Virus record (IMG/VR): IMGVR_UViG_3300009703_002114
Span: 1 to 25,161 of that record
Source of the DNA: a virus
Length of the DNA stretch: 25,161 bases
Reading direction: 5' to 3' (one strand)
Below are positions 1 to 17,422 of this stretch, piece by piece. The translations under genes and the position numbers were made by a program. The stretch's first letter is position 1; each line of letters opens with the position of its first letter. The notes under the pieces are model-generated. The model made no database searches and was not told the origin of the DNA. It saw only the letters and a list, made by a program, of their open reading frames with translations.

Positions 1-750
1 ATATTCGTATCTCTCAAAAGTATTAGTCCAATCTACATATATCGAACCTGTGTAATCAGTAACTACAGGTTCATATGGTGGTATTCTCATATTCTCTATA
101 CCTGTTTCTTCTACTTTCATTGTATAAGATTTCTTATCAGCCATTACACGAACAACTTCCATACCAAAACTTGGATATAGTTTATTGTCTACTGAAATAA
201 CTAATGGTATTCTTCGAACTGAACCATCAACTTCAGGAGATGACGATAACATCCCAGCCCCATCAGAGCTTTTTGAATGTATATTATTTACTACAGACTT
301 ATACTTATATGCGAAGGTGTTAGCATCACCATTACCTAGAGTAGCAGTCCCTACATGAGGAGCTACACTTTCTAAGCCCTTCGTTGAAGTTGTTGATGAC
401 AAAACAATGCCATTGTCTTTTACCCATGATGCAAATATCTCATCTCCACCAAATCTATCTACATCAGCGAACATTGGTGTGAATGCTATGATACCAGCAT
501 TGTTGTTTCTTAAATCAGATATTAACTGAGCGAATTGTTGTCTTGGAAATGGCCATTGACCAAATGTGTTTAAAGATTTTTCTCCGATATCAATAAGAAC
601 TATTGATTCATTTTGAACTTGTTCTTCTGTCTTTTGATAATAATCAAAGTTGATTACTCTGAGTTGTTCTACTATACTTGGGTCATATATTCTTAGACTG
701 ATTAATCCGACTAGAACTATGATACAAGACCATATTGAAGTTAGTTTCAT
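1..750 (-). CDS. CHASE2-domain membrane sensor protein (C-terminus outside window)
   Basis: An open frame starts with ATG at 750 and runs 250 codons to the window edge without a stop. It overlaps the stop of the upstream curlin-like gene as ATGA. An N-terminal hydrophobic segment (about residues 4-19) is followed by features typical of CHASE2, an extracytoplasmic sensor domain usually fused to cyclases, kinases or channels: 'FDYYQK' near residue 40, 'VLIDIGEKSLNTFGQWPFPR' near 53-72, 'AGIIAFTPMFAD' near 85, 'DGSVRRIPLVI' near 180 and 'LYPSFGMEVVR' near 195. The output domain, if any, lies left of the window. It is the last visible gene of the late csgF-csgG operon. FecR and CHASE2 proteins are known to occur together in bacteria, which fits the FecR gene two positions upstream. 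The family call rests on motif order by eye; the ligand is unknown. Confidence 0.72.
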   Translation of the reverse strand, partial: MKLTSIWSCIIVLVGLISLRIYDPSIVEQLRVINFDYYQKTEEQVQNESIVLIDIGEKSLNTFGQWPFPRQQFAQLISDLRNNNAGIIAFTPMFADVDRFGGDEIFASWVKDNGIVLSSTTSTKGLESVAPHVGTATLGNGDANTFAYKYKSVVNNIHSKSSDGAGMLSSSPEVDGSVRRIPLVISVDNKLYPSFGMEVVRVMADKKSYTMKVEETGIENMRIPPYEPVVTDYTGSIYVDWTNTFERYEY

Positions 751-1568
751 TGTTGTGTAACACTAATTGTACACCCACCAACAGTTACACAATTTTGAGA
801 CAAAGTATATGTTTGTGTTGTGTTTCCCTTTTGAACTAAAGTTAAATCTGTTGGTTGTGATCCCAATAATGATACTGTAGCTGTATGAGCTCCATTGTCT
901 CTTTGATTAACAAACACATCATTGCCATCTGAATTTCTAATTGTAAGTGTTAATGTTTTATTTCCATTCTGAGCTTGTCTAGCGTATACTTCGTTATCGT
1001 CTGTATAGATGTTAGCTGTAATAGAATGTTGAATACCAGATGTATCCATCTTTTGACTTCCAATAAATGTATTATCATCACCATGTATATCTAGTCTTAC
1101 AAAATTTCCACCAGGTTCGTTGTTATCATAATTCCATGTTGGACTTGTACTGTCATTGAGAGAATATCCTTGACCAAACTTAACTACATTATCATCACCC
1201 CATACATGAAATTGAAAATCGTTATCATTACAACTTGAAGTTGAACACTTTTGACGAATATCCATATTATTTCTTAGTCCGTCTAAATCACCACCCCAAC
1301 TATATCCTGAACCCCAAGCATCAGTATACCCAATATAGTTATTGTTTCCAAATTGTAAAAGATTAACTGTATTGTCATTATGATTAAAAGAAAATCTAAT
1401 CAAATTAGTATGACCAATTTGATCAATACTAAGATTTAAATTATCACTAGCACCAGTGGCAACTTGATCTAGATGTATATGATTATGTGTATCATCAGCC
1501 AGACTGTTTAATGATAATAACGACACTATCGCCGTCATTAACAATAATTGAATTTTTAACACCTTCAT
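747..1568 (-). CDS. Secreted curlin-like repeat protein (second copy)
   Basis: 273 aa from ATG 1568; a GTG two codons upstream would give the longer form. A signal peptide ends near 'LNSLADD'. The mature part is rich in Asn, Asp, Gln, Gly, Thr and Ser and repeats short alternating beta-strand/turn units such as 'IDQIGHTNLIRF', 'LLQFGNNNYIGY', 'WGDDNVVKFGQG' and 'HGDDNTFIGSQ', ending 'TISVTQQ'. This resembles the Q-x-G-x-x-N pattern of curlin repeats (CsgA/CsgB), though the units are irregular. With CsgG and CsgF in the same operon, it is probably a substrate or surface product of that pore. Cys pairs near residues 109-114 and at the C-terminus could form disulfides. Its start lies inside the FecR gene (about 74-nt overlap), so translation is probably coupled. 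A true amyloid nature is inferred, not shown. Confidence 0.7.
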   Translation of the reverse strand: MKVLKIQLLLMTAIVSLLSLNSLADDTHNHIHLDQVATGASDNLNLSIDQIGHTNLIRFSFNHNDNTVNLLQFGNNNYIGYTDAWGSGYSWGGDLDGLRNNMDIRQKCSTSSCNDNDFQFHVWGDDNVVKFGQGYSLNDSTSPTWNYDNNEPGGNFVRLDIHGDDNTFIGSQKMDTSGIQHSITANIYTDDNEVYARQAQNGNKTLTLTIRNSDGNDVFVNQRDNGAHTATVSLLGSQPTDLTLVQKGNTTQTYTLSQNCVTVGGCTISVTQQ

Positions 1569-2655
1569 TTTCACTCTCTATATTTACACTCGACTGTATT
1601 GGTATTCTAATATCTATGATTCCATTAACTTCTCTATAAAACCATATTTGACCTGCAGCTTCGTCTATTATTGTATTATATTGTGTGGTCTTATCAAATC
1701 CTAAAGCTGTACCTACTATGTTTCCTTCTGTAGAACCTGTTTGACCTTTATCTCTTGCTTTTTGTTTTATTATATTTATTTCTTCAAAGAGTTTAAGAAC
1801 ATCTTGAAGAAAGTCTACATCTAGTAAGTCCATATCTAACTCACTAAATTCTAAATCTTCACCTCCATCGTCCCAATCTTCTTTCAGATAATCTATATCT
1901 AAATCATTAAAGTCTAAAAGACTGTCACTGCTATCATCACGAGCTTCTGCAGCTTCGTCTGTAGCGTCTGTAACTTCTTGTGGTGGTGAAACAATAAACA
2001 TATTATCTATTGAATCTAAATTCATAATATTATCTAACACTACAGGTTGAACAGGTGGTGTCGATATATTAGACACCATTGTAGCCTGAAATGCTTCATT
2101 CAAAACAACTACGCCACCTTCATTCGTAACTGTTATTTCACCAGACGGACTACAATCTCCGTCTACAGTACATTCTGTTTCGGGTAAAAGAATTACTAAA
2201 CTTCTACCAAGTTCATCAACACTTGTTGTAAAACTTGTCCCTCTCACACCAATCGTTGCCGTTGGTGTTGTGATTACAATATTCTCTACTGGTACTAGAC
2301 CCAACTTACCTGTTGTAAATCTAGCTGTTCCAGATACAAAACTCATAGCCATTTTAGACTTTGATGGATCTGGATCAAAATAGTATTCATCTATTACTAC
2401 TTCTGTATGTTCAGTAAGTTTCAAATTTGTTTCATCAACAAACTTGATGTTCATTCTACCTTGAGCTGTTTCTATAGAATCTTTAAAGAATATATCTTCT
2501 CCGATTCCACCAGCTAAAATTTCACCCGTACCTCTTACTATACCTGAACTACCATTGTGTTCAGTTATATCACCTATGTCATTTGCGTAAACAAAAGTAG
2601 TAAGTAGACAAACATTAATCGCCAGTATCTTTTTGATTAATTGTAATCGTTGCAT
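1495..2655 (-). CDS. Secreted FecR-domain protein with acidic C-terminal region
   Basis: 386 aa from ATG 2655 (a TTG four codons upstream is less likely). The signal peptide ends around 'TTFVYAND'. Residues about 25-190 match the FecR domain: 'GIVRGTGEILAGG', 'QGRMNIKFVDETNLKLTEHT', 'GTARFTTG' and the hallmark 'TPTATIGVRGTSF'. Such secreted domains often accompany surface adhesins, as well as their classical role as anti-sigma regulators. No cytoplasmic anti-sigma segment is visible here, so a structural or assembly role fits better than transcriptional signalling. After the domain comes a highly acidic Asp/Glu/Leu stretch (about residues 225-290), then a final beta-rich part. The gene lies between the two curlin-like genes and overlaps both, which points to a shared assembly. 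Its exact role is unknown. Confidence 0.78.
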   Translation of the reverse strand: MQRLQLIKKILAINVCLLTTFVYANDIGDITEHNGSSGIVRGTGEILAGGIGEDIFFKDSIETAQGRMNIKFVDETNLKLTEHTEVVIDEYYFDPDPSKSKMAMSFVSGTARFTTGKLGLVPVENIVITTPTATIGVRGTSFTTSVDELGRSLVILLPETECTVDGDCSPSGEITVTNEGGVVVLNEAFQATMVSNISTPPVQPVVLDNIMNLDSIDNMFIVSPPQEVTDATDEAAEARDDSSDSLLDFNDLDIDYLKEDWDDGGEDLEFSELDMDLLDVDFLQDVLKLFEEINIIKQKARDKGQTGSTEGNIVGTALGFDKTTQYNTIIDEAAGQIWFYREVNGIIDIRIPIQSSVNIESENEGVKNSIIVNDGDSVVIIIKQSG

Positions 2656-3352
2656 TTTCACTATCAAAATCCGCTATTAGTTCACTATGACATGAACTTA
2701 TGCCGGTAGGACAAGTTCCAGAACTCTGAACAATATCAATATTACCACTAGATTGAATTAATTCTAAATCAATTTTATGATATGCTCCATCTGTCATATT
2801 TGTATTGACATCATTAGAACTACCTGTAACATCTACATCATATCTTGCATCGTCAACTTCAATAACAGTTGTAAATACATTAGAACTACCTGAAACATCT
2901 AAATCGAAATCTAGTCTTTCAGAAGACTGTGCTGCACCCCAATCTAAGTTCATAGTATTTGAACTACCAGACCAAGTTGCTAACAAGTTTGATGCGTCAG
3001 CTGAACCTGATGCACCAATAGTTTGATCCCAAATATTACTATTACCTGTCATATTAACACTATAAGTAGATTGATCAAGAATCATTGGACCATATATCTG
3101 GTTCAAATTACCAATCATATCCATGTTAATTGTATTAGTTGTACCTGAAATTACCATTGCTGTACCACAGAGTCCACTAGATATAGTCCCACAGATTTTG
3201 TTACCATAACCAATCTGATCAATGGTTAATGTCAATGTATCACCTGTTTGATCTAATTTGATAACATTATCTGTTGTTGCTTCAGCGAACAATAATGTAG
3301 GTGTGAATAATGTAAAGAATAATATCTTATTCAATATTTTCTTCATTTTCAT
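2615..3352 (-). CDS. Secreted curlin-like repeat protein (first copy)
   Basis: 245 aa; ATG at 3352 or, two codons later, at 3346, with a GAGGA ribosome site spaced better for the second. A signal peptide ends at 'TLLFAEA'. The mature chain is made of short Asn/Ser/Gly/Thr units: 'IDQIGYGNKICG', 'MIGNLNQIYG', 'VNMTGNSNIWDQTIG', 'DVSGSSNVFTT', 'DVTGSSNDVNTN' and 'DIVQSSG', ending 'ATITINQKDTGD'. The x-G-x-x-N-x-x-x-x-Q rhythm resembles curlin repeats (CsgA/CsgB). It has the same N-terminal start (MKMK) and layout as the curlin-like gene at 747-1568, so the two are probably diverged paralogues. It starts inside the csgG gene (26-nt overlap). It is likely exported through CsgG; polymerisation is inferred. 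Confidence 0.72.
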   Translation of the reverse strand: MKMKKILNKILFFTLFTPTLLFAEATTDNVIKLDQTGDTLTLTIDQIGYGNKICGTISSGLCGTAMVISGTTNTINMDMIGNLNQIYGPMILDQSTYSVNMTGNSNIWDQTIGASGSADASNLLATWSGSSNTMNLDWGAAQSSERLDFDLDVSGSSNVFTTVIEVDDARYDVDVTGSSNDVNTNMTDGAYHKIDLELIQSSGNIDIVQSSGTCPTGISSCHSELIADFDSENATITINQKDTGD

Positions 3353-4268
3353 TTTCCTCGTTATTATTATTATTATTTTCTTCGGTGATTAAAACTATTT
3401 CAACTTCATCAAAAACCTCAGAAACTTCTTTTTTAATTTTAGTTTCTGTTACAGGCCATTGAATAGTCCAATATCCTTTTTCATCACCTTGAAGTATTAA
3501 TTCGTAAACAGCAGCTTCGATAGCTGATCGAACACTTCTGGTTACACTCTCATTCTCGGTCATACCGTCTTCGACTTCTACTAGTTGAGTATCCATCTCT
3601 ACGAATCTAAAAACATCAAATCCTTCAGCGACCGATAAAATAGTCTTTGATGTCTGTACATTTAATAAAATTTCACCCGTAAGAACACTTACTGCTCTCA
3701 AGTGAACAACTACGATATCTCTACGATAAGCTTGTTGAGCTCCTATGCCAAGATACCGTGCACCTCTTCCTCCAGTTTCTATATTGGTATCATATCCAAT
3801 AATTCCACCTTCCAAAATAATCCCAGCGAACAAGAGTGGTGCTAATTTTTTCTCCTCTTGATACGCTTCTCTTGTTGTTCTTACTATTTGACGCTCTCTT
3901 GTCAAATGGTCTATACCAACTCTTTCTACTACACGAAACCATGTACCATCACCTGCTGTTTTCAAAGCATCGATTAACATAGTCTCTGTACCTTGTGATA
4001 CTGCTGTACTAAACATAGCAGCGTCACCTTTCTGTTTTCTTTGACCTGTTTTATCTAAAAACTTATAAACTGCTATAACAGGTTTTTCTTTAGCTGGTGG
4101 TAAAGATAATAGTTTTTCGTGTGTTGGTAATTCTATAACTTCTGGTTCTTCTGAACATTCAACAAATTTTGAACAGTTTGTATCGTGTACACCTTTAACA
4201 CTTACCATAGATGCACAACTACTCAATAGTAGAAGGCTAAAAACACCTAATCCTATTCTGAAATTCAT
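3327..4268 (-). CDS. csgG: CsgG-like curli secretion channel lipoprotein
   Basis: 313 aa, close to bacterial CsgG (about 277) plus a tail. The N-terminal lipobox 'LLLSSC' puts the lipidated Cys at 18. Strong CsgG landmarks follow in order: 'VAVYKFLDKTGQ'-type strand near 64, 'STAVSQGTETMLIDALK' near 87-104, 'WFRVVERVGIDHLTRERQ' near 110-127, 'GIILEGGIIGYDTNIETGG' and 'GARYLGIGA' near 149-176, then 'LTGEILLNVQTSKTILSV'. In bacteria CsgG forms a nonameric outer-membrane pore that exports curlins with CsgE and CsgF. The tail after 'YWTIQWP' is an odd Glu/Asn-rich extension with an Asn run coded by a trinucleotide repeat. The gene directly follows csgF with no gap, and its GGAGG ribosome site is formed by the last Gly codons of csgF. 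No CsgE is seen here. Confidence 0.93.
   Translation of the reverse strand: MNFRIGLGVFSLLLLSSCASMVSVKGVHDTNCSKFVECSEEPEVIELPTHEKLLSLPPAKEKPVIAVYKFLDKTGQRKQKGDAAMFSTAVSQGTETMLIDALKTAGDGTWFRVVERVGIDHLTRERQIVRTTREAYQEEKKLAPLLFAGIILEGGIIGYDTNIETGGRGARYLGIGAQQAYRRDIVVVHLRAVSVLTGEILLNVQTSKTILSVAEGFDVFRFVEMDTQLVEVEDGMTENESVTRSVRSAIEAAVYELILQGDEKGYWTIQWPVTETKIKKEVSEVFDEVEIVLITEENNNNNNEENENEENIE
3361..3375. repeat. Trinucleotide (TTA)5 microsatellite in the csgG tail
   Basis: Five tandem TTA units on the plus strand encode, on the minus strand, five AAT Asn codons followed by AAC in the Glu/Asn-rich C-terminus of CsgG. Gain or loss of a unit would change tail length without shifting the frame. Confidence 0.8.
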
Positions 4269-4823
4269 CTATCCTCCAAACTGACCACTACCGATAGGTA
4301 TGGTTATAACTGTCTCTGTACCGTCTTCTGCTATAATAGTCAATACAATAACTTCTTCTCCGATAACACAACCTTCCATCTCAGCTGTATTACAAGTAGT
4401 TTTTTGATATGATATTGTATTTCCTTCTAAAGCAAAACTACCGAATGTTGCTTGTACACAGGTAGGATCTACTGTAAGGTCACATTGTTTAAATAATGAT
4501 TCAACTAACTGTTTAGAAAGTTGAGAATAAATTCTACTTTCCAAGTTCCTCATGAACTTAGCCATAGTAGTATTTTCAGCTTCTCTTTGAGCTGCTAATA
4601 AAGCTGACTCTATATCTTTTTGAATAGCGTCACGCCTTGACTTTTCCTGATTCTCAATAGTAAGATAATGTGCTGATGTACCTATACCACTGAAGCTCGG
4701 ATTTTTAAATTTATGTGTTAACTCATCTGCAGATACAGAAGGAGTTAAAGCAAATATTGAGATTAAGAAGATACCTATTAAAGTAACTACTTCAAATTTA
4801 TCTCTAAGTTTTTTTATCTTCAT
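4269..4823 (-). CDS. csgF: CsgF-like curli assembly protein
   Basis: 184 aa from ATG 4823. An upstream in-frame ATG (4859) gives 12 extra charged residues before the signal peptide and is less likely. The signal peptide ends near 'TPSVSADE'. The mature N-terminus 'ELTHKFKNPSFSG' is the CsgF signature, matching the F-x-N-P-x-F segment of E. coli CsgF that plugs into the CsgG pore. 'FMRNLESRIYSQLSKQL' corresponds to the helix after it and 'TVITIPIG' to the C-terminal strands. Unlike E. coli CsgF it has four Cys (C-x7-C and C-x7-C) in the C-terminal half. In bacteria CsgF couples secretion to nucleation at the cell surface. It comes just before csgG and overlaps the upstream membrane-protein gene by 20 nt. 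Confidence 0.88.
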   Translation of the reverse strand: MKIKKLRDKFEVVTLIGIFLISIFALTPSVSADELTHKFKNPSFSGIGTSAHYLTIENQEKSRRDAIQKDIESALLAAQREAENTTMAKFMRNLESRIYSQLSKQLVESLFKQCDLTVDPTCVQATFGSFALEGNTISYQKTTCNTAEMEGCVIGEEVIVLTIIAEDGTETVITIPIGSGQFGG

Positions 4824-5130
4824 GTTGTTTCTCTGCGAGAGCTTCCTTTTCCTCGACATCTTCTAAGAACTTTTGTCTCTCTCTATATTCTAATACGACA
4901 TTAACCTTTTGTTGTAATCGTATCATATCTTGGTCAAGCATCCTTACTTGATCTATCAACCTGATTAATTGCATGTGCATTTTCTCAATTTCAGGTTCTA
5001 ATTCATTAGAAATGAATTGCCAAACATAATATATAAAATATCCCATACCAACGGCAAGGACAATCGGAAAACCATAATCATTAATTAGTTGAACAATCGT
5101 AGGATCGTTACTTATAGCTATTTCGTCCAT
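4804..5130 (-). CDS. Small membrane protein with coiled-coil tail
   Basis: 108 aa. One transmembrane helix at about residues 23-42 ('PIVLAVGMGYFIYYVWQF') follows a short acidic N-terminus. A long charged helix 'EIEKMHMQLIRLIDQVRMLD' with heptad spacing then continues to a Lys/Glu-rich end, predicting coiled-coil assembly. Its topology and 'MGYFI' core match the preceding gene (5130-5423), so the two may be diverged copies or partners. It starts by a TAATG overlap with that gene and overlaps csgF at its end, so it belongs to the late csgF-csgG unit. No family is recognised. A holin-like or pore-anchoring role is possible but unproven. Confidence 0.72.
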   Translation of the reverse strand: MDEIAISNDPTIVQLINDYGFPIVLAVGMGYFIYYVWQFISNELEPEIEKMHMQLIRLIDQVRMLDQDMIRLQQKVNVVLEYRERQKFLEDVEEKEALAEKQHEDKKT

Positions 5131-5423
5131 TAATCTCTCCTAGCGTCAATTTTTCCATCTTCAACAAAGTTACTAGCTCGAGCTACGCGGTCGATTGGTG
5201 GAGTAAGTTCTAATGCACTACTAACTAATAGGTCTATTTTAATCATTTCATTATTCATTGTGTTTACTCTTGTTTCTAAACTCTTACAAAACATAGTAAG
5301 AGTACTAATAGAATCAACTAAACCACCTAAAATCTGTTTTAGGATTAAGAATATGAAATAACCCATTAGTAAAGCACCCGCTACCGGAGCACCTACTTCC
5401 ATTATCAGTTCAAATATTTCCAT
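5130..5423 (-). CDS. Small membrane protein, first gene of the late curli-type operon
   Basis: 97 aa. A transmembrane helix at about residues 12-33 ('GAPVAGALLMGYFIFLIL') is followed by an amphipathic helix 'TLTMFCKSLETRVNTMNNEM' and a polar tail. It starts at ATG 5423 with a good GGAG ribosome site, 22 nt after a T4-type late promoter, and so leads the operon holding csgF and csgG. It shares layout and the 'MGYFI' core with the next gene. Function is not recognised; late timing and its small single-helix form would suit a holin-like or scaffold protein, but nothing in the sequence decides this. Confidence 0.75.
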   Translation of the reverse strand: MEIFELIMEVGAPVAGALLMGYFIFLILKQILGGLVDSISTLTMFCKSLETRVNTMNNEMIKIDLLVSSALELTPPIDRVARASNFVEDGKIDARRD

Positions 5424-5445: not shown

Positions 5446-5453
5446 TATTTATA
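5446..5453 (-). promoter_or_regulatory. T4-type late promoter (TATAAATA) for the csgF-csgG operon
   Basis: The minus strand reads TATAAATA, the core of T4 late promoters read by the gp55 sigma factor, 22 nt before the ATG at 5423 and directly after the poly-T of the terminator. The gene for gp55 is not in the window. Confidence 0.72.
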
Positions 5454-5501: not shown

Positions 5502-5825
5502 TTAGATTGAGAAAGATTCACCACAACCACAATAAGCAGTTGCGTTTGGATTAACAAAGGTAAATCCTTCATTTATACCGTGATATTGATAGTCTAGTTG
5601 CATACCATGTAGATATTCTACTGATGCTTGGTTTGTCCAAATACTAAAAGTCCCATAATTGACTTCTAAATCATCTTCGTCTGGTTCTCCTCTTAGAAAA
5701 TCAAACTCGTAAGCAAACCCATTACAACCACTACCTTTAACTCCAATCCTTATGTTAGGATTTTCATGTTGTTGTGTTTTCTCTTGAAGCTTTATAAGTG
5801 CTTCGTCTGTTAGTTCAACTATCAT
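5502..5825 (-). CDS. IscA/HesB-type iron-sulfur cluster carrier
   Basis: 107 aa, the usual length of A-type Fe-S carriers (IscA, ErpA, HesB). It shows the three conserved cysteines: C34 in 'VKGSGCNGFAYEF' and C99/C101 in 'TAYCGCGESF'. In bacteria these proteins bind and pass Fe-S clusters to apoenzymes; HesB-like genes are known in marine T4-like phages. Here it may serve host metabolism or phage Fe-S enzymes such as QueE, which is inference. It follows the 54-aa membrane gene by 4 nt, under a late-type promoter at 6024-6031, and is closed by a terminator. Confidence 0.92.
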   Translation of the reverse strand: MIVELTDEALIKLQEKTQQHENPNIRIGVKGSGCNGFAYEFDFLRGEPDEDDLEVNYGTFSIWTNQASVEYLHGMQLDYQYHGINEGFTFVNPNATAYCGCGESFSI

Positions 5826-6035: not shown

Positions 6036-7097
6036 TTATGGTGTTAACACCGGCCAAATACTACGATCTTTATAATTTTCTAGTATTATTTTTGTTGGAG
6101 AATCTTTTGATATTTCTTCTATACCATTTAGACCAGGATTTGCATTTACTTCTAGACAATATGGAACTTCGTTTTCTCTATCTTCTGAGGGAAGTAAATC
6201 TACACCTACTAATCTACCACGAAATTCTTCTGCTATTCTAATTGCTTCTGTTTTTTCTAGTTCTGTTAATTCTATTTCTTCTGTATTTGCACCCATTGAA
6301 GCATTACTTCTAATATCATCACTCATAACATTTCTTTTCATAGCACCTACAACTTGATTTTCACAAACAACTACTCTTATATCATATTCTATATCAATAA
6401 ATTCTTGAATAATAATAGGCAAATATTTGTTATATAATAACTGCATTTGAATTAATGATTTTAATGACCTTAAACTTTCAACCACTACAACACCAACTCC
6501 TGTTTGTGTACCTGTAGATGATTTTAATACTAGTGGAAAATCTGTACCTAATTTTTTAACAGTATCTTCAACTGTTTCAGAATGAACTATAGGTTCTGTT
6601 TTAGGTGTTCTGATATCTTTTTGTAGACATTTTAAATAACTCATGTATTTACTATTACATAAATCATAACAATCTATTGAGTTAAGAATAAAGTATCCTT
6701 CTTCTTCTAAATTTTTCATCATATCATACCAATTTCTACTACCTGTAAAGTTTAATGTACCTAATCCTCTAGGCATTATAATCCAATCTGCAGGATTTAT
6801 TTTTATTGGTTTTTGATATTTGTAATTACCTTTTTGGTCAGGTAATTCAACTTCTAAGGTGTCATCTAAAGGAAAAGAATTGACTTCATGACCACTATTA
6901 GTTTTATTGATATGCATACCAACAAAATCTGCGTGTGCTATTGTAATACCTAGTTGTTTTGCAACTTTATCAATTATAGGTGTTGATGGTTCTTCTCGTG
7001 CTGTGTCTCTAACAGATGCAGCTGAATGACTTATAACTAGAATGTTATAAGGTTTGATATCTTCTGAGAGATTTACAAATTCTTTAAGACTTTTCAT
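6036..7097 (-). CDS. RimK-like ATP-grasp ligase
   Basis: 353 aa. The middle and C-terminal parts show the ATP-grasp fold: 'NSKYMSYLKCL' near 148-158, the Lys and glycine-rich loop 'PLVLKSSTGTQTGVGVVVVE' near 188-207, 'IIQEFIDIEYDIRVVV' near 228-243, and the metal-binding 'YCLEVNANPGLNGIE' near 312-326. This is the RimK/glutathione-synthetase subgroup, which joins a carboxylate to an amine with ATP (RimK adds Glu to ribosomal protein S6). The N-terminal ~120 residues differ from cellular RimK and include the 'MKSLKEFV' opening. The substrate cannot be read from sequence; protein tailing or a small-molecule ligation are options. It overlaps the upstream 78-aa gene by 14 nt. Confidence 0.88.
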   Translation of the reverse strand: MKSLKEFVNLSEDIKPYNILVISHSAASVRDTAREEPSTPIIDKVAKQLGITIAHADFVGMHINKTNSGHEVNSFPLDDTLEVELPDQKGNYKYQKPIKINPADWIIMPRGLGTLNFTGSRNWYDMMKNLEEEGYFILNSIDCYDLCNSKYMSYLKCLQKDIRTPKTEPIVHSETVEDTVKKLGTDFPLVLKSSTGTQTGVGVVVVESLRSLKSLIQMQLLYNKYLPIIIQEFIDIEYDIRVVVCENQVVGAMKRNVMSDDIRSNASMGANTEEIELTELEKTEAIRIAEEFRGRLVGVDLLPSEDRENEVPYCLEVNANPGLNGIEEISKDSPTKIILENYKDRSIWPVLTP

Positions 7098-7320
7098 TTA
7101 CTTTCTTCTCTAATTCTTCTATCCTTTTCATAATTGAAGGGTAGTCTGCTTCAAATTTAGATTGTTTTTTAGCTAATTCTATATCGTATTTATTCGACAA
7201 ATACTCCATAAATGAATCTAATTTGAATTGAAACCAAATACCGAAAGTAGTAGTTTGAAACCATTTATAAAAAGAAGAACCTATGACACTCTTTAACAAT
7301 AATATAAGTAAAGAATACAT
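7084..7320 (-). CDS. 78-aa membrane-anchored protein with coiled coil
   Basis: A hydrophobic N-terminus 'MYSLLILLLKSVIG' precedes an aromatic segment and a charged C-terminal helix 'SIMKRIEELEKKVNEKS' with coiled-coil character. It sits 1 nt after the lipase gene and overlaps the ATP-grasp gene, so it is part of that transcript. No family is recognised. Confidence 0.6.
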   Translation of the reverse strand: MYSLLILLLKSVIGSSFYKWFQTTTFGIWFQFKLDSFMEYLSNKYDIELAKKQSKFEADYPSIMKRIEELEKKVNEKS

Positions 7321-7321
7321 T

Positions 7322-8092
7322 TTACTGATTGACTTCTAAATCATTTTCTAAATGAGTTATATAATCATTTATATTGTGATCGGCTATTATATCTAATCTT
7401 CCTTTTACAATAGTTGAAAGTAAAGACCAACCTTTATCTCTAATTCTTTCTGTAGACCAACGACCAAGGTTAGTTACTTCTCCTGTTGATTTAATATAAT
7501 AACATTGACCATTGTGCCTCCATCTTAACCATGAAGGTACACATGGTACTACATCATTATTATTTACAAATCTTTGATGATTTAAGTTAGTATCACACCA
7601 TTTACTGAATAATGAACCACCTGCTCTAGGTGAACCAAATGTGAATAAAGTATCTATATCATGTCCGTCTTTGTATTCTAATCTCTGAGCTAGAATAGTT
7701 GCCATAGCACCACCAAGTGAATGACCACATGCCCATATAGATTTATTCTTTGCTATTTTATCTAATAAAAGTTCTACAGGGTCATAGACTTTATCAACTT
7801 CTTCTTTAAATCCTTGGTGAATTTTGTTACCTGTTACTGAATCTGCTTTGAATATTTCTAGGTCAGCATACACATCATTCATTTCAGATGGCTCTGTACC
7901 TCTACAAGCAATAGCAACATCATATTTACTTGAGAATACATAAGTTTGTGCTCCTTCAACATCAAATAAAACTGTTTTTGTGAATCCTAGTTTCTTTGCT
8001 GCAGGTCTTGCTTCTTGTAAATCTGTATACGCTATACTTGATAACTTTGCGAATAAAACTCTTTTTTGTTTACTAGATAAGTCATTGATCAC
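7322..8092 (-). CDS. Class 3 lipase (alpha/beta hydrolase)
   Basis: 256 aa. The nucleophile elbow 'ACGHSLGGAMA' places the catalytic Ser at 125. The oxyanion-side motif 'IACRGTEP' is near 61-68, the probable acid Asp180 is in 'NNNDVVPCVP', and the probable His239 is in 'ADHNINDYITHL', matching the D-H-x-x-x-x-Y end of fungal-type class 3 lipases. No signal peptide is visible, so it would act inside the cell, for example on host membrane lipids or at lysis; that is inference. Such lipases recur in marine T4-like phages. Its ATG overlaps the regA stop by one base (TAATG-like), so it is read from the replication operon. Confidence 0.9.
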   Translation of the reverse strand: MINDLSSKQKRVLFAKLSSIAYTDLQEARPAAKKLGFTKTVLFDVEGAQTYVFSSKYDVAIACRGTEPSEMNDVYADLEIFKADSVTGNKIHQGFKEEVDKVYDPVELLLDKIAKNKSIWACGHSLGGAMATILAQRLEYKDGHDIDTLFTFGSPRAGGSLFSKWCDTNLNHQRFVNNNDVVPCVPSWLRWRHNGQCYYIKSTGEVTNLGRWSTERIRDKGWSLLSTIVKGRLDIIADHNINDYITHLENDLEVNQ

Positions 8093-9274: not shown

Positions 9275-9715
9275 TTATCTTTCCCATGGAAAGACAATCC
9301 AATGTCCGTTGAGAGGATTACTATAAACAATATCTTTAGCATTTTCTTTACCAAACAAACAGTAACCATATACTTCTGGCATTGCTGATGGTCTAGTTCT
9401 ATTCCTTTTTACAAATTCAATTACATTATTCATAGTATAACCTGTGTCGTAAATATCGTCAACAACTAATATCTTTTGAACTTCATCAAAAGTTTTTGTA
9501 GTAGCATTATGCATCCAATAAGGTTTTTTATCTTTACCATCTCTGGTTTGAAATCCTACAATAGACATTGGTACATTTCTAATATTAGATACATGAACAG
9601 CCATTGGTAAACTACCTCGATAGATACCTACAACATGGTCAAACTTTAACCAATCGATACCTTTCATATCTTTTTCGTAATCAGACCAAGTGTATTGATG
9701 TTTATTATTATACAT
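9275..9715 (-). CDS. Gpt-like purine phosphoribosyltransferase
   Basis: 146 aa, close to E. coli Gpt (152). The PRPP-binding motif 'ILVVDDIYDTGYT' lies at 82-94, an 'YRGSLPMAVHVSN' loop near 32-44, and the C-terminal 'WIVFPWER' matches the W-x-x-F-P-W-E end of xanthine-guanine phosphoribosyltransferases. The reaction would be base plus PRPP to give the 5'-monophosphate. Lying between the DpdA-like and DUF6884-like genes, it may salvage the guanine released when DpdA swaps the base in DNA, or charge a modified base; that is inference. It overlaps the dpdA-like stop by 8 nt. Confidence 0.85.
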   Translation of the reverse strand: MYNNKHQYTWSDYEKDMKGIDWLKFDHVVGIYRGSLPMAVHVSNIRNVPMSIVGFQTRDGKDKKPYWMHNATTKTFDEVQKILVVDDIYDTGYTMNNVIEFVKRNRTRPSAMPEVYGYCLFGKENAKDIVYSNPLNGHWIVFPWER

Positions 9716-11000
9716 CTAAAACTCCTGGCCAATGTTCAGGTACTTTCTCTGGAGCTCTTTGTCTTGATAACCAATTATTAGTAAATTCATCATAGGAAGT
9801 AATAGAACCGAGACCTGTTGTATCTACAGGATTATTAATTCTTCTATCCAACTCAATCATAAAATTACCAATAGTATTTGTGACCCATAACCATGGTGTT
9901 AAATATCTACCATGTATTGCTGAATCATGGTCTTTCCAAAATCTTCTATCACCATTTACATTTTCTACTGACCATTTAGTTGAATCATTTATTAATTGCA
10001 TTGGTTCAGTAATACCAAAATCATTTAATGTTTCTCTGTCATATTCAAATAGTTCATTGATAACAGGAAGTAATTGGTCTGAATGAATTTGAGATAATCC
10101 TTTCTTTGACCTATGAACAACATCTACATCAATATTAGTAAATTCTTTATTTCTATATCTTGAATAAAACCAAGATGAAGCGTGAGAAGATGAATCATAA
10201 GATAGATTCTCAATAAAACTAAAGTAATCAGGTGATAGATAGAACGGAGATAAAGCTTCGTGATTACCAACACCCAATAAATGAACATTGTTTTTAATTA
10301 CATCAGGTATCTGATATTCTTTCATTGCATAAATCATTTCACATCTATGAGCGAATGAGTTACCATTACATAGTGAACTTGGAGCTACACCACATACAAA
10401 CATATCAATTTCATCATCGGATAGACCATTACATATCAATTCGATATATTCTCTGTATGTTTCTACTGATTGACCTTGTGATATTAACATCATCTTTGCT
10501 TTAGAGTCTTCTTGTTTGAATACTTCTATTTGTCTTTTAACATTAGCTAATGTTGCTGTAGCAGCTCGTTTGATATCACTTCTATCAAATCTTCTACCAA
10601 GTAATGATGCTTTCATAGAGTTACCACCAATAAGTGATAAATCAAACTCAATAGGTATTTCATCAAATATCATTGCAACATCACAATACTTTGCTTGATG
10701 ATGATATACTTTATCTTTTAACTCTGGTGTAATACCTTTTGATGTTCTTGCCATTTGTAGACCACCTGAGTCTGCAAACAAACGATGCCATGAGTCATTC
10801 ATTGTTTCTGTCATAGTCACACCATGTTTTCTTTCTTGATGTGCGTTGTATAGTAATGATAAATTTTGATTATCAAATCTATTGTCTAAATCAGTTATTT
10901 TCTGATTCATGTGTTTTATATAAGGTTCTGCGACTACAGGATTGTAATAGAGATCATCAATCCCCATAGTTAGACCTGAAACTACATATTCAAACTTCAT
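9708..11000 (-). CDS. dpdA: DpdA/TGT-like transglycosylase for 7-deazaguanine insertion
   Basis: 430 aa. TGT-superfamily landmarks: 'FADSGGLQMA' (Asp77, general-base position of D-S-G-G-F-Q), 'CDVAMIFDEIP' near 106-115, 'ISQGQS' near 173-178, 'HLLGVGN' near 241-247 and 'YDSSSHASSW' near 268-277, whose Asp is the likely nucleophile. The C-terminal zinc Cys3-His site of tRNA-guanine transglycosylases is not seen. This fits the DpdA group, which exchanges guanine in DNA for preQ0 rather than modifying tRNA. Neither phage tRNA in the window has a GUN anticodon, so they are not queuosine substrates. It lies between folE and gpt, overlapping folE as ATGA. The exact DpdA subgroup and target motif cannot be told here. 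Confidence 0.86.
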   Translation of the reverse strand: MKFEYVVSGLTMGIDDLYYNPVVAEPYIKHMNQKITDLDNRFDNQNLSLLYNAHQERKHGVTMTETMNDSWHRLFADSGGLQMARTSKGITPELKDKVYHHQAKYCDVAMIFDEIPIEFDLSLIGGNSMKASLLGRRFDRSDIKRAATATLANVKRQIEVFKQEDSKAKMMLISQGQSVETYREYIELICNGLSDDEIDMFVCGVAPSSLCNGNSFAHRCEMIYAMKEYQIPDVIKNNVHLLGVGNHEALSPFYLSPDYFSFIENLSYDSSSHASSWFYSRYRNKEFTNIDVDVVHRSKKGLSQIHSDQLLPVINELFEYDRETLNDFGITEPMQLINDSTKWSVENVNGDRRFWKDHDSAIHGRYLTPWLWVTNTIGNFMIELDRRINNPVDTTGLGSITSYDEFTNNWLSRQRAPEKVPEHWPGVLDV

Positions 11001-11656
11001 GATTGTAATGCTAACTTCATAAATTCTGATCTTACAGAATGTTTGTGAAAGAAATAACCACCTAACTTAGATGTAGTCATACCAGAGTTTTGATCTCCAA
11101 TCCCTCTAGACTTTACACAAAGATGTTCTGCTTGTACAAGAACAGCAATATTATCAGTACCCAAAATATATTCTAGTGCATAGAAAATTTGTTCTGTCAT
11201 TCTTTCTTGAACTTGAGGTCTTCTTGCAAAGAAGTTTACAATTCTATTCAATTTAGAAAGACCCACTACATTTTCATTTGGTATATAAGCAACTTGTGCC
11301 ATACCATTAAAGTTGACTAAATGATGTTCACATAATGAGTGGAATGTAATATCCTTTTGTATAATCATTTGGTCATAACCCATTTTGTTTTCAAATACTG
11401 ATACTTTTGGAAATCGATTATATGATAATCCTGAACATAATTCAGAAACATACATCTTTGCAACTCTATCAGCTGTACCAGCTATTGAATCATCTTCTCT
11501 ATCTAGACCCAATACATCAACAACAATCTCCATGTTATCTCTAATTAGTTCTATCTTCTCCTCGTCTGATAAAGAAGTTTCAGTAATAGGTGTTTCAACA
11601 CCTTTATTGACTAGATATTTAGCAACCTCTAGTCCAAGTTTTCTATCTGTTTTCAT
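10997..11656 (-). CDS. folE: GTP cyclohydrolase I
   Basis: 219 aa, the usual FolE length. The zinc and catalytic residues are present: 'SLCEHHLVNFNG' (C109, H111, H112), 'VVGLSKLNRIVNFFARRPQV' near 130-149 and C180 in 'AEHLCVKSRGI'. FolE turns GTP into dihydroneopterin triphosphate, the first step toward preQ0 and also folate. With queD, queE and queC in the same run it supplies the deazaguanine pathway. The start at 11656 has a GGAG site. The 49-nt gap upstream carries a small hairpin (ATGTG/CACAT) and an AT-rich stretch but no promoter I would trust. Confidence 0.96.
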   Translation of the reverse strand: MKTDRKLGLEVAKYLVNKGVETPITETSLSDEEKIELIRDNMEIVVDVLGLDREDDSIAGTADRVAKMYVSELCSGLSYNRFPKVSVFENKMGYDQMIIQKDITFHSLCEHHLVNFNGMAQVAYIPNENVVGLSKLNRIVNFFARRPQVQERMTEQIFYALEYILGTDNIAVLVQAEHLCVKSRGIGDQNSGMTTSKLGGYFFHKHSVRSEFMKLALQS

Positions 11657-11705
11657 TTTTTCTCCATTTTTTCATGTGGTTTTGTCACATATAATATAAT
11701 GAACC

Positions 11706-12371
11706 CTAACCGAAATAGTAAGGGTTCTCTTTAGTTTCAAACCTTTTCATAGGTTGTAACTCACTTCTTTGTAAATCCATAAGATACAGAACACCTGCTT
11801 CTGTTTCTTCTGAATTTTCAAATTCTGTTGATGAAAGATTTAAATCTTCATCAAAATACAAAGGACTTATTTCATTTCTGAATAAAGTCAATGCATGATT
11901 TCTATCTTCGTATCTAGCACAACTAAATGTACCGTCAACATCATCTAGTTCATTACCTAACAACAAGTGTCTATGTAATAATTCTGTATCCCAATCTAGT
12001 TTTCCGTAATCAGTTCTCCATTCTTGAACTTGATAATCTTTTATAATACCATTGTGCCATAATAAATCACTATTGATATTTGATGGGTGTGTTTTTGTAT
12101 TTTCTGTCGTTGGTGCTTGTACATGACCTAAATAGTATGTTTTAAAATGTTGAGGATTATCTTCTGTAAATCCTGTAACTTTATCTGTAAACAAACCTTC
12201 ATTTTGATATGTCAAGATATGTTTTACATGAGCTTCATTATTATAATTGTAGGCAGTATATCTACTCACTACAAACATAGATGTTGAATGAGAATATTTA
12301 CCTCTATACTGATTCAAATCTGCTAGTTCTAAGAATTTTTCTTTATCACTACTTCCAAATATTGCACACAT
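11706..12371 (-). CDS. Class II glutamine amidotransferase next to QueC
   Basis: 221 aa when started at ATG 12371, which makes 'MCAIFG' the N-terminus. After Met removal Cys2 becomes the Ntn nucleophile, so the longer upstream start is rejected. Other class II features: 'NQYRGKYSHSTS' near 20-31, 'GHVQAPT' near 84, 'LLWHNGIIKDYQ' near 103-114 and 'WDTELLHRHLL' near 124. The domain frees ammonia from glutamine for a partner. Its ATG overlaps the queC stop (TAATG). In archaea and some phages a Gat-QueC pair or fusion converts preQ0 to the archaeosine-type base G+, so this may do the same in DNA. No synthetase domain is attached. Confidence 0.85.
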   Translation of the reverse strand: MCAIFGSSDKEKFLELADLNQYRGKYSHSTSMFVVSRYTAYNYNNEAHVKHILTYQNEGLFTDKVTGFTEDNPQHFKTYYLGHVQAPTTENTKTHPSNINSDLLWHNGIIKDYQVQEWRTDYGKLDWDTELLHRHLLLGNELDDVDGTFSCARYEDRNHALTLFRNEISPLYFDEDLNLSSTEFENSEETEAGVLYLMDLQRSELQPMKRFETKENPYYFG

Positions 12372-13072
12372 TATACTTTCCAATCTATATCTATATCATA
12401 AGGAATAGGGTCTTTACGACCTACCTTCATGAAGTTCATTATTCTTTCAGCACAAGAAGGACACTTACCACAAGATAATACACCTTGAGGATTATAACAA
12501 GTCAATGTATGTTTGAGTAAATCAAATTGTCCTAATTCAATTGCTACTTCTATTTCATCTGCTTTTGACATTTGACTAAAAGGAGCTTCTATCTCAACTT
12601 TATGTTGACGATTTTGTGAAGCTACATTATTCATTGTGTCTACAAACTTTTGTGTCGTGTCCCAATAACCATATTCATCATGAACTTGTAATCCTGTAAT
12701 TACTTTATTACAACCTTGTACTTCTGCATGACTCATTGCAATAGATAATAGTATCATATTTCTGAATGGTACATAAGTTACTGGTTGTGGGTCACCTAAC
12801 ACTTCTTTTATATTTGGCATGTCAACTTCTGTACCTGATATATTTGCTGACATTGGTTGAGCTATTGTACCCAATACTGATAAATCAAGTATCGTATGTT
12901 TTACTTCTAACTCTTTACATAAATCAGAAGCTTTCTCAATTTCTAATTTTTGTTTCTGATTATAATCAAATGTCACAGCTTGAACATTATCTTTACCATA
13001 CTTATCAACGCACATCATAGTAGCGACTGAACTGTCCAGACCACCACTTAATACTACTAATACTTTATCCAT
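12371..13072 (-). CDS. queC: 7-cyano-7-deazaguanine (preQ0) synthase
   Basis: 233 aa, full length. PP-loop 'SGGLDSS' at 9-15, 'VTYVPFRNMILLS' near 98-110 and the zinc cysteines C192, C201, C204 and C207 in 'TCYN' and 'SCGKCPSCAER' are all present. QueC converts 7-carboxy-7-deazaguanine with ammonia and ATP to preQ0. QueF, which would reduce preQ0 to preQ1 for queuosine, is not in the window. It overlaps queE by one base and the amidotransferase by the TAATG junction. Confidence 0.97.
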   Translation of the reverse strand: MDKVLVVLSGGLDSSVATMMCVDKYGKDNVQAVTFDYNQKQKLEIEKASDLCKELEVKHTILDLSVLGTIAQPMSANISGTEVDMPNIKEVLGDPQPVTYVPFRNMILLSIAMSHAEVQGCNKVITGLQVHDEYGYWDTTQKFVDTMNNVASQNRQHKVEIEAPFSQMSKADEIEVAIELGQFDLLKHTLTCYNPQGVLSCGKCPSCAERIMNFMKVGRKDPIPYDIDIDWKV

Positions 13073-13938
13073 TATGTTCCTATCTGATTACCAAAAATAT
13101 AACAATGTACTCTTGCAGATACATTATATCCTCTTTCCATTGTTTGAATTGTAATTTCTTTTGCGTTATCATCTTGAGATTCTTCTGTTGCACCAACAGG
13201 CATTATCCATATCGGATACATTACACCTGCGTCTCTGAATTTTATTATTGATTCTTCAATCTCATCCCATGAAGCATCTGAACCATTACAAACAAACTTT
13301 AGTTGTCCTACTTCTGATATATCATGATATTGTTTTACTATATCTGGACATACAGCATCTTGTTCACCACTTGTATTAAACATCTTCGGACTTACTGAAA
13401 AGAAGTATTCAACTTCACCACTCATACTCATTAAATGATTATGAAATACAGTTTCTATTGGTCTTGTTCCATTTGTTTCCCATGTAATATACTTAAATCT
13501 TTTACTAAACTTTTCACGACACAATCTTTCCATTTCTTCTAGAATTTTTACAGTTTTCTTTTGTGCAGCTTTCATTAATGGTTCACCACCTGTAAATGCT
13601 ATATGAGTATTTTCATCATACATTTGATTGAATAGTTTTAATGCAACTTCTTCTTCTGTTTCATTCTTTTGTATCTTTGCAAACTTCTTTGACCAAGAAT
13701 AAGATGAATCACAACCATACTTCCATACAGGTAAATCTTCTACATTCTTAACTTCAATAATATCAAAATCTTGATATGGTAATTTATATGTAGAAGGGTC
13801 TGTTGGGTCGTCTTGTCCAAAACCATTACATTCAAGATTACAACCAAAAAATCTTAACCAGGTTGTTGGTACACCTGTGTAGTGTCCTTCACCTTGAATA
13901 CTTTTAAAAATTTCCGAATACAGCACTATTTGCTCCAT
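13072..13938 (-). CDS. queE: 7-carboxy-7-deazaguanine synthase (radical SAM)
   Basis: About 288 aa from ATG 13938. A GTG at 13926 has a better ribosome site (GGAG, six bases) and may be the true start. 'YSEIFKSIQGEGHYTG' and 'PTTWLRFFGCNLECN' mark QueE, and 'IAFTGGEPLM' is the SAM-binding GGEP motif. It rearranges 6-carboxytetrahydropterin to CDG. The cluster cysteines are unusual: in place of the compact C-x14-C-x2-C of E. coli QueE there are C37 and C41, then C80 in 'KYGCDSSYSW' after a ~38-residue insertion (numbered from a Met four codons before 13938). It overlaps queD by about 35 nt and queC by 1 nt. Confidence 0.94.
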   Translation of the reverse strand: MEQIVLYSEIFKSIQGEGHYTGVPTTWLRFFGCNLECNGFGQDDPTDPSTYKLPYQDFDIIEVKNVEDLPVWKYGCDSSYSWSKKFAKIQKNETEEEVALKLFNQMYDENTHIAFTGGEPLMKAAQKKTVKILEEMERLCREKFSKRFKYITWETNGTRPIETVFHNHLMSMSGEVEYFFSVSPKMFNTSGEQDAVCPDIVKQYHDISEVGQLKFVCNGSDASWDEIEESIIKFRDAGVMYPIWIMPVGATEESQDDNAKEITIQTMERGYNVSARVHCYIFGNQIGT

Positions 13939-14341
13939 GTTCGAATACACGAACTGATTTTACAATAACTCTTTCACATTCATATCTTTCACGACAAAAC
14001 TCATATACTTCTTGAGCAAAAGCTTCACAACCAACATTAGACATTACTCTAAGATCAATAAGTCCTTCATTCTCTAACTCTACAAAAGACTTCATCATTG
14101 GATCATCTTCTGCTATTACTGTTGTGTGGTCAAAAGTATTTTTTAAATATTGTTTTAATACACCCAAGTCTCCGAAATCTATAACCCAATTTCTATCGTC
14201 TAAAGTTTCTGACTCGAATGTTATTTCAAAACCTAATGCATAACCATGAATTAGATTACAATGAGAGTTTGCTCTCCATTGTCTAAATGCACATGAATGA
14301 CCTGTCTCATTCCCGTATGTTTTTATTACTTGATACTTCAA
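13904..14341 (-). CDS. queD: 6-carboxytetrahydropterin synthase
   Basis: 145 aa. 'TGHSCAFRQWRANSHCNLIH' has zinc ligand His15, catalytic-position Cys28 and His32; 'NWVIDFGDL' and 'FDHTTVIAEDDP' complete the QueD/PTPS fold. The usual H-G-H is H-G-Y here (Tyr34 for the third zinc His), so metal binding may differ or use His27. QueD turns dihydroneopterin triphosphate into 6-carboxytetrahydropterin. The start is a TTG at 14341 overlapping the gp44 stop (TTGA); no ATG occurs before the zinc motif. This is the left boundary of the block inserted after gp44. Confidence 0.92.
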   Translation of the reverse strand: MKYQVIKTYGNETGHSCAFRQWRANSHCNLIHGYALGFEITFESETLDDRNWVIDFGDLGVLKQYLKNTFDHTTVIAEDDPMMKSFVELENEGLIDLRVMSNVGCEAFAQEVYEFCRERYECERVIVKSVRVFEHGANSAVFGNF

Positions 14342-16445: not shown

Positions 16446-16608
16446 TTCTTTGTTTCAACCAATCTCTATAAGATAAATCTTCACCTTTTATGTTTTCTTG
16501 ATGTAAATACTTTTGATATTCTTTTTTACTTTCTTTAGACTTGTTCATAGTGTTTACCCAACCATCAGAACTATCTAACCATTCTTTTGAATTAATTTCT
16601 TTTCTCAC
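16438..16608 (-). CDS. 56-aa protein with GTG start, unknown
   Basis: GTG at 16608 overlaps the stop of the SET-domain gene as GTGA, and the TAA overlaps the next gene. The product is hydrophilic with many Lys and Glu ('MNKSKESKKEYQKYLHQENI', then 'YRDWLKQRNE') and is probably helical. The tight overlaps on both sides are the main support. No family recognised. Confidence 0.62.
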   Translation of the reverse strand: MRKEINSKEWLDSSDGWVNTMNKSKESKKEYQKYLHQENIKGEDLSYRDWLKQRNE

Positions 16609-16937
16609 GCTTCTATATCATCATACCCAACAGTATAAAATACAGTTAATTCTTCACCTTCTTCTATAGGTTTAATTGTATACAGTTCTCTTTGGTTTCC
16701 GTCATGATAATGAATATTCATATTAATAAAACAATTAGGATTCTCTGAATGATTTATAAAACCACCAAGAGGTGTTCTTATCCAATCCCATCTATTTGCT
16801 TCCCATACATGAGTCACACCAAGAAAGATACCTGCTTTCAAATTTTCTTTTGTAAATAATCCATTACCATTTATAGGTGAACTAGCAATAGTCAACCCAT
16901 CAGGTAATGGTTTGTAATGTTGTGGTCCAAATTTCAT
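16605..16937 (-). CDS. SET-domain protein (putative lysine methyltransferase)
   Basis: 110 aa from ATG 16937, which overlaps the upstream stop as ATGA; a longer frame upstream is not needed. The SET-fold motifs are all present: 'GNGLFTKENLKAG' (24-36), 'FINHSENPNCF' (60-70, the N-H-S-x-x-P-N-C signature) and 'IEEGEELTVFYTVGYDD' (91-107, G-E-E-L-x-x-x-Y). SET proteins transfer methyl groups from SAM to lysines. No pre- or post-SET cysteines are seen, so it is a minimal form. The target could be a phage or host protein; that is unknown. Confidence 0.85.
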   Translation of the reverse strand: MKFGPQHYKPLPDGLTIASSPINGNGLFTKENLKAGIFLGVTHVWEANRWDWIRTPLGGFINHSENPNCFINMNIHYHDGNQRELYTIKPIEEGEELTVFYTVGYDDIEA

Positions 16938-17422
16938 AATGTAAACCACTCTGGTGTTGGTCTTTTTTTCCAAACACTAAAACTACTTTTCTCACCCATG
17001 TAATATTTTTGATACGCTTCAACTGAATCTTCACCTTTATATTCATCTGGCATACATTGTGGTGGTTGATAAAACTTTTTATTGATTGGTATATTCTTTG
17101 GAGGTGTTCTTAATGTCTCTCTTAATTTTAAATCTGTCATGTGTCCTTTCTCATAACGATATGTGTATTCATCACATAGTGCTTCAAACAATCTGTATAA
17201 CCACCAATAGTTGTATACATTATCTCTTACCCATATTGTACTTGGGTGATTAACATGAGCTCTTTTGTACATAAACAATTCGTCAGCTTTTTCATCACCG
17301 TCCAGAACTCTATGAGCTGTACATAACATTTGTGCTGACTCAAGTATCATCTTTACACAATGTTTATCATTATGTTCTATAGCTGATATCTCAGGACTTT
17401 CATTCAAGTAAAATATATTCAT
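16934..17422 (-). CDS. Conserved phage protein, unknown function
   Basis: 162 aa. Clear pattern of His, Trp and Cys: 'MNIFYLNESPE', 'DKHCVKMILESAQMLCTAHR' near 19-38, 'HVNHPSTIWVRDNVYNYWWL' near 56-75 and 'KFYQPPQCMPDEYKGEDSVE' near 116-135. The many conserved-looking His/Asp residues hint at a metal-binding helical enzyme, and the type resembles a protein often seen in T4-like marine phages, but I know no proven function. It overlaps the SET gene (ATGA). Confidence 0.8.
   Translation of the reverse strand: MNIFYLNESPEISAIEHNDKHCVKMILESAQMLCTAHRVLDGDEKADELFMYKRAHVNHPSTIWVRDNVYNYWWLYRLFEALCDEYTYRYEKGHMTDLKLRETLRTPPKNIPINKKFYQPPQCMPDEYKGEDSVEAYQKYYMGEKSSFSVWKKRPTPEWFTL

Follow-up and report, generated by a model that had tools for sequence, protein, structure and literature searches.

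A predicted CHASE2-cyclase gene closes a phage curli operon that also encodes a FecR-domain protein

A type VIII secretion (curli) module has been described in pelagiphages, both podoviruses and myoviruses, and the published account of it includes a FecR protein, a second curlin-repeat protein and an adenylate cyclase, together with an alphaproteobacterial affinity and expression in metatranscriptomes (PMC9599517, in the parts cited here). CsgF and CsgG have also been recorded in related phages (PMC7029224, PMC9004378), and infected cells are described as giving no sign of clumping (PMC9004378). The word CHASE2 is absent from the main texts of these three papers. In bacteria, a FecR envelope protein is likewise encoded beside a CHASE2 adenylate cyclase in gene clusters of Campylobacterota (PMC9239204) and in the alphaproteobacterial loci discussed below. 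The BiofilmReg operon of Burkholderia similarly places the gene of a LysM-FecR protein beside that of a CHASE2 sensor, and an insertion in its response-regulator gene gave a strain without biofilm; there, however, CHASE2 drives a histidine kinase and not a cyclase (PMC5192318). The Sinorhizobium enzymes CyaD1, CyaD2 and CyaK, working with NsrA and Clr, are CHASE2 class III cyclases through which a signal at an outer-membrane barrel leads to cAMP (PMC13001267, PMC5498481). This last system differs in being bacterial and symbiotic and in having a known CRP-type receptor, Clr, and curli are not mentioned in the cited portions of the two papers.

The window analysed here comes from a marine virus and is the entire IMG/VR record IMGVR_UViG_3300009703_002114 (25,161 bases). 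Its (-) strand encodes, in this order, two small proteins, CsgF, CsgG, a first curlin-like protein, FecR, a second curlin-like protein and the CHASE2-cyclase (Table 1). This matches the module of PMC9599517 in the order CsgF, CsgG, curlin, FecR, curlin, cyclase, in having no CsgE, and in its nearest relatives being Alphaproteobacteria; the operon type is already published, and the present locus adds a further instance. The window also departs from the cited parts of that paper. FecR was taken for a ferric-citrate regulator in that account, whereas here it carries a curlin-type end and an apparently anchor-like domain; and one or two histidine kinases precede CsgF there, whereas the window has in that place two proteins of about 100 residues without a kinase match.

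Table 1. Features of the window (positions in the 25,161-base record).
Feature	Position	Strand	Basis
CHASE2 sensor, N-terminal 250 residues	1..750	(-)	Pfam and PHROGs; protein of ~610 aa judged from relatives
Curlin-like repeat protein 2	747..1574	(-)	HMM built here, seeds include the window protein
FecR-domain protein	1495..2667	(-)	PF04773, 4.1e-12, 46.8 bits against cut-off 24
Curlin-like repeat protein 1	2615..3352	(-)	HMM built here, seeds include the window protein
CsgG curli outer-membrane pore	3327..4268	(-)	PF03783, 2.8e-52, over cut-off
CsgF-like curli chaperone	4269..4859	(-)	PF10614, 1e-8, 35.8 bits against cut-off 25.8
Small protein 2, 108 aa	4804..5130	(-)	phrog_18771, 2e-28
Small protein 1, 97 aa	5130..5423	(-)	phrog_18771, 2.4e-23
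T4-type late-promoter octamer TATAAATA	5446..5453	(-)	22 bases ahead of the operon's first ATG
Fe-S biosynthesis protein (PF01521)	5502-5825		
RimK-like ATP-grasp protein	6036-7097		
Class 3 lipase	7322-8092		
SET-domain protein	16605-16973		
AAA_5 ATPase	19368-20567		

Both small proteins (~100 aa; 4804-5423) belong to a single PHROG family. Small protein 1 shows, by eye only, one membrane helix and a coil, and Pfam gives it no rows at E 1; small protein 2 has a weak holin row (phrog_4898, 0.004), and its Pfam rows are weak, none of them above cut-off and none a kinase. A 38.7 kb contig that carries the complete module (L175) has an extra ORF of about 100 residues between its two proteins of this type (6605-7553), and seven other loci (L060, L061, L082, L089, L092, L094 and L173) encode the pair downstream of the operon, in the opposite orientation.

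The frame that opens the record (750 to 1, (-) strand) comprises 250 codons and is interrupted by the record end. The first-pass annotation had read a CHASE2 domain in these 250 residues and placed FecR beside it. HMM search bears out the domain: PF05226.16 matches with E 6.5e-23 and 82 bits against a cut-off of 26.3, aligning residues 14-248 with profile positions 4-173 of 257, and phrog_35576, a family of 681 positions and unknown function, matches at 6.5e-60. FecR does lie in the same operon, although not adjacent, as the second curlin-like gene (747-1574), which shares four bases (747-750) with the CHASE2 gene, stands between them. That annotation was right about the sensor, the link with FecR and, judging by the relatives described next, a cyclase output, but missed the curli module (CsgF, CsgG and the curlins) in which they lie.

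As the record stops inside the CHASE2 gene, we infer its C-terminal domain from relatives: 16 close viral loci, 80 loci collected by profile search and, by tblastn, HTVC008M (two records) and four Melnitz-type phages, whose records are annotated as adenylate/guanylate cyclase. Identity over the visible part reaches 92% (in L003), and complete frames among the close relatives have 609-624 residues. In all six full-length phage relatives scanned, L003 among them, CHASE2 is followed over cut-off by the cyclase domain PF00211, so that of the two outputs proposed earlier, a cyclase or a channel, the cyclase is upheld and the channel finds no support. CHASE2 scores 119.2 bits in the full-length relative L005, whose structure model (mean pLDDT 85.5) begins with a single helix, continues with an alpha/beta domain and, after three helices of membrane length, ends in a cyclase. 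The predicted helices of this relative (5-22, 305-328, 331-354 and 362-394) suggest a CHASE2-type topology (a single membrane helix at the N-terminus, a periplasmic domain and three helices C-terminal to it), with which the envelope placement supposed for the sensor would agree. Its cyclase part aligns with CyaB (3r5g) at a TM-score of 0.88 of the target, and among the 50 Foldseek matches listed for the model all are cyclases. Judged from these relatives, the window frame is probably the N-terminus of a membrane-bound class III cyclase.

Class III cyclases use two metal-binding Asp residues, here D428 and D476, together with a Lys and an Arg. The site (D428, K472, D476 and R557) is kept in all 86 aligned phage cyclases, 85 of them distinct and one a duplicate, and identity among the phage enzymes falls to 33-45%. 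The purine position of the phage enzymes combines Lys with one of Ser, Thr or Asp, a pattern of ATP specificity, and the full-length relatives look like enzymes whose product would be cAMP. The catalytic Asn is replaced by Ser in 23 of the 86 (22 by motif). Enzymes with this Ser-for-Asn change, the cyclase of Melnitz among them, have Asp as their purine-site residue behind the same CHASE2 (L019, 9001-11049, and 22 other loci); they form a second phage cyclase type, perhaps with a swapped cyclase domain or an altered activity.

The composition of the operon is highly conserved. Every cyclase-seeded viral locus that extends 6.5 kb or more upstream (42 loci) contains CsgG and FecR, and every CsgG-seeded locus that extends 4.5 kb or more downstream (48 loci) contains FecR and the CHASE2-cyclase; the exact order CsgF, CsgG, curlin, FecR, curlin, cyclase is found in 41/42 and 48/48, respectively. 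In the sole exception, L093, CHASE2 comes immediately after FecR, no second curlin being recognised, and FecR retains the tail motif described below. These counts rest on 80 cyclase-seeded loci and on the best 80 of 409 CsgG-seeded loci, so distant relatives are under-sampled, and at least six contigs are common to both sets. Of 84 unique viral loci, 47 have an exact copy of the octamer TATAAATA within 80 bases of the operon's first ATG, and the corresponding count for CsgG is 0 of 93; in the window as a whole its three copies are not above chance (mean 4.74). The octamer ahead of the operon, in the window as in these loci, supports the earlier labelling of the CHASE2 frame as a late gene, and the curli operon is probably transcribed late.

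Elsewhere in the window, the (-) strand from 9708 to 14341 encodes GTP cyclohydrolase, a glutamine-amidotransferase-like protein, QueC, QueE, QueD and a 430-residue phrog_10773 protein, presumably DpdA-like. This preQ0-type set suggests 7-deazaguanine modification of DNA. Five further genes are given in Table 1.

Pfam returns no Curlin_rpt (PF07012) row for either curlin-like protein of the window; the same profile matches the L175 protein at the position of the first curlin (3.1e-7), and all three relatives of the second curlin that were scanned (HTVC008M, Melnitz and L175), two of which also match PA14. HMMs built here, with the window proteins among their seeds, connect these two proteins with the phage curlins. 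The PA14 domain precedes the repeats of the second curlin (L018, 7667-8989, 2.7e-6; L175, 10512-11684, 2.1e-10), possibly forming a sugar-binding fibre tip; Pfam finds no PA14 in the second curlin of the window or of Melnitz. CsgE, the gate present in E. coli and lacking from some curli systems (PMC9599517), was found in none of ten phage records, the window included, of which HTVC008M and Melnitz are complete and the others may be fragments. Given this absence, FecR may also occupy the pore. A CsgG relative is also encoded by GenBank OR851715.1, an unannotated 1,499-base sequence named as a Salmonella phage, which may be host DNA.

The FecR protein has a short leader, a beta region that is FecR- and anchor-like, an acidic linker and a C-terminal curlin-like strand (VVIIIKQSG). 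The hydrophobic leader begins no more than about 15 residues into the protein (model helix 2-24) and the FecR domain follows it. FecR of the FecA-FecI type is an anti-sigma regulator with a cytoplasmic anti-sigma part ahead of its membrane helix; as the window protein has no such cytoplasmic part, we rejected a role as an anti-sigma or iron regulator of this type. The structure model (mean pLDDT 69) has a low-confidence acidic linker at 245-313 and a beta region at the C-terminus. It matches the cell-surface-signalling domain of PupR (Z 14.8) and, under Z 8, the structure 5ix9 (Z 7.3, 74 of 76 residues, 27% identity; profile E 0.002), named by the tools antifreeze protein or cell surface anchoring domain and taken by us to be a domain of an RTX adhesin. 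FecR may therefore resemble a cell-surface anchoring domain. The VIA-align 2 matches cover residues 28-248 only, and no curlin is listed among them.

Evidence on the C-terminal strand comes from a tail motif, [VILFM]x[VILFM]xQ ending at most three residues from the C-terminus. It occurs in all 84 unique phage FecR tails and in 116 of 165 phage curlins (148 of 165 by a looser motif), against 0/89 CsgF, 0/90 CsgG, 0/78 CHASE2-cyclase and 5/797 other long ORFs. The C-terminus of E. coli CsgB (AIRVTQR) is of the same type, CsgA falls outside the expression, and the motif is present in 6 of 12 ORFs matched by the curlin HMMs in five alphaproteobacterial curli operons. It was found in none of 50 FecR ORFs from bacterial CHASE2 neighbourhoods (bacterial background 28/3,178). 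An origin as a by-product of gene overlap was rejected: among 83 tails, of which 59 overlap the next gene by more than 27 bases and two are unclassified, the motif is kept in 15/15 loci without overlap and in 7/7 with an overlap of at most 27 bases. Moreover, the CsgG and CsgF tails overlap the next gene yet lack the motif, so overlap does not explain the tail of FecR. A link of FecR to the fibre through its C-terminal strand is therefore supported.

The bacterial relatives show the FecR/CHASE2 association in another setting. The cyclase's 80 best bacterial loci are labelled Alphaproteobacteria in 78 cases (mostly Bradyrhizobium), 'Proteobacteria' in one and 'Frankia' in one. Seven of these have a short upstream flank; in the 73 others, which extend 4 kb or more ahead of the cyclase, the ORF immediately preceding it on its own strand encodes FecR in 42 cases. 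Among the other 31, eight have a same-strand FecR further upstream and one (L237) has it just upstream on the other strand; ten have an upstream ORF of at least 1,290 residues that runs off the locus, so 42/73 may be a lower bound. The FecR domain is found close to the N-terminal end of large repeat proteins: four of the five bacterial FecR ORFs scanned (L178, L188, L196 and L212) combine it with cadherin-like, Ig-like, VWA or RTX domains, and the fifth (L230) has the FecR domain alone. In L196, where FecR is further upstream, ABC exporter and HlyD genes lie between it and the cyclase. These clusters differ from the phage operon in the fusion of FecR to adhesin-type repeats (4/5), in the exporter genes of L196 and in having no curli genes, none being detected with the HMMs built here in any of the 80 loci.

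A broader alphaproteobacterial CHASE2 sample limits how far this association extends. From 59 matches over cut-off, 40 regions were chosen for their flanks and four were dropped for want of a match to the phage HMM; FecR was directly upstream in 6/36, upstream on the same strand in 9/36 and anywhere in the region in 15/36. The sample is not fully independent of the first (L301 is the L188 locus, and the L303 contig has the same size as that of L177), and FecR was sought with HMMs built here, which distant FecR domains may escape. We accordingly dropped the pairing as a general rule, and with FecR directly upstream in only 6/36 it appears to be a habit of part of the family. Alphaproteobacterial curli operons were also considered as the source of the FecR-cyclase pair and, on the five operons sampled, rejected. 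CsgF exceeded the cut-off in 5 of 385 sampled Alphaproteobacteria genomes, and the 19.5 kb stretches retrieved for these five curli operons contain neither FecR nor CHASE2; L263 holds, some 8 kb off, a weak match of 96 residues to the cyclase HMM (9.7e-4). In a sixth genome, with CsgF under cut-off, the 3.2 kb locus (L262) holds no module genes. Most simply, the phage operon would bring together a curli operon and a FecR/CHASE2-cyclase pair, the two being separate in the bacteria sampled.

How might these parts work together? We propose that the CHASE2-cyclase closing the probably late phage curli operon reads, through CHASE2, a periplasmic FecR joined to the fibre, and adjusts cAMP in response; we hold this to be about evenly poised between right and wrong. 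CsgG and CsgF would form the outer-membrane pore and the two curlin-like proteins the fibre. FecR would be exported to the periplasm, where its FecR/anchor domain would stay, and its C-terminal curlin-type strand would join it to the fibre or the pore. The periplasmic CHASE2 domain might then contact FecR and distinguish its free form from one engaged with the pore or the growing fibre, turning the cyclase on or off and so changing cAMP in the infected cell. Phage FecR has the strand of a fibre subunit and bacterial FecR heads repeat proteins, so that a single polypeptide would link the FecR domain to a surface polymer; it is this link in both settings, with a CHASE2 domain facing the periplasm, that leads us to propose that FecR reports the state of pore or fibre. 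In the open-access literature we found no account of FecR as a fibre-tethered partner of CHASE2.

Several observations sit awkwardly with this proposal. FecR, if exported whole, would end up away from CHASE2; the low counts of the broader alphaproteobacterial sample (6/36) and of the alphaproteobacterial curli operons (0/5 within 19.5 kb) do not favour it; the 5ix9 match stays below Z 8; and catalytic Asn is Ser in 23/86 phage cyclases. A cAMP-binding domain (PF00027) was found in none of nine phage records other than the window, and among ten titles listed in the literature for a Pelagibacter cAMP receptor, none deals with such a receptor. Alternatively, the CHASE2-cyclase could respond to an extracellular ligand as a general receptor of the envelope, with FecR a regulatory neighbour, for example an iron-related one (PMC9599517), and the state of the fibre not sensed at all. 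CHASE2 is an input domain whose signals are stated to be unknown in the cited part of PMC5192318, and in S. meliloti a plant protein elicits a response from the CHASE2 cyclases by way of the outer-membrane barrel NsrA (PMC13001267), which would suit such a receptor. Yet the cyclase gene is never apart from the curli operon in the 42 cyclase-seeded loci with enough flank, FecR and the curlins have a C-terminal strand in common, and a cytoplasmic anti-sigma part is lacking from the window's FecR; we consider this explanation rather unlikely.

It may instead be that FecR serves as a plug or gate of the CsgG pore, standing in for the absent CsgE, and that the cyclase, though encoded in the same operon, regulates host physiology separately. 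The failure to find CsgE in the ten phage records and the combination of anchor-like similarity with a curlin-like tail are what such a plug would lead one to expect, but FecR and CHASE2 are also neighbours in bacterial loci where the HMMs built here detect no curli gene, and in the clusters of PMC9239204 and PMC5192318, which points to a functional pair. We regard the plug as improbable. The null explanation, in which the operon is a passenger gained by horizontal transfer that does little for the phage, has on its side the bacterial type of the genes and the alphaproteobacterial labels of 78 of the 80 best bacterial loci. Against it, the core order is kept (41/42 and 48/48) although the cyclases fall to 33-45% identity, the four catalytic residues are invariant (86/86), the late-promoter octamer precedes the operon in 47/84 loci, and expression in metatranscriptomes has been reported (PMC9599517). 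We find this very hard to credit.

Our proposal of a fibre-joined FecR read by CHASE2 can be extended, with rather more doubt than confidence, to the bacterial clusters. The FecR/CHASE2-cyclase pair might be a portable sensor of fibre state, in which a FecR anchor domain borne covalently by a surface polymer is read across the periplasm, and which phages have joined to a curli operon. In bacteria the polymer would be the adhesin-type repeat proteins, some of them encoded beside type I exporter genes; in phages it would be the curlin strand exported with type VIII secretion, and late curli assembly or contact would give a cAMP signal in the infected cell. Curli operons are carried by abundant ocean phages without a settled role, and the cited parts of the earlier papers leave open what FecR and the cyclase do there. 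If the extension holds, CHASE2, a sensor whose signal is mostly unknown, would gain an input in bacterial adhesin-type gene clusters as well.
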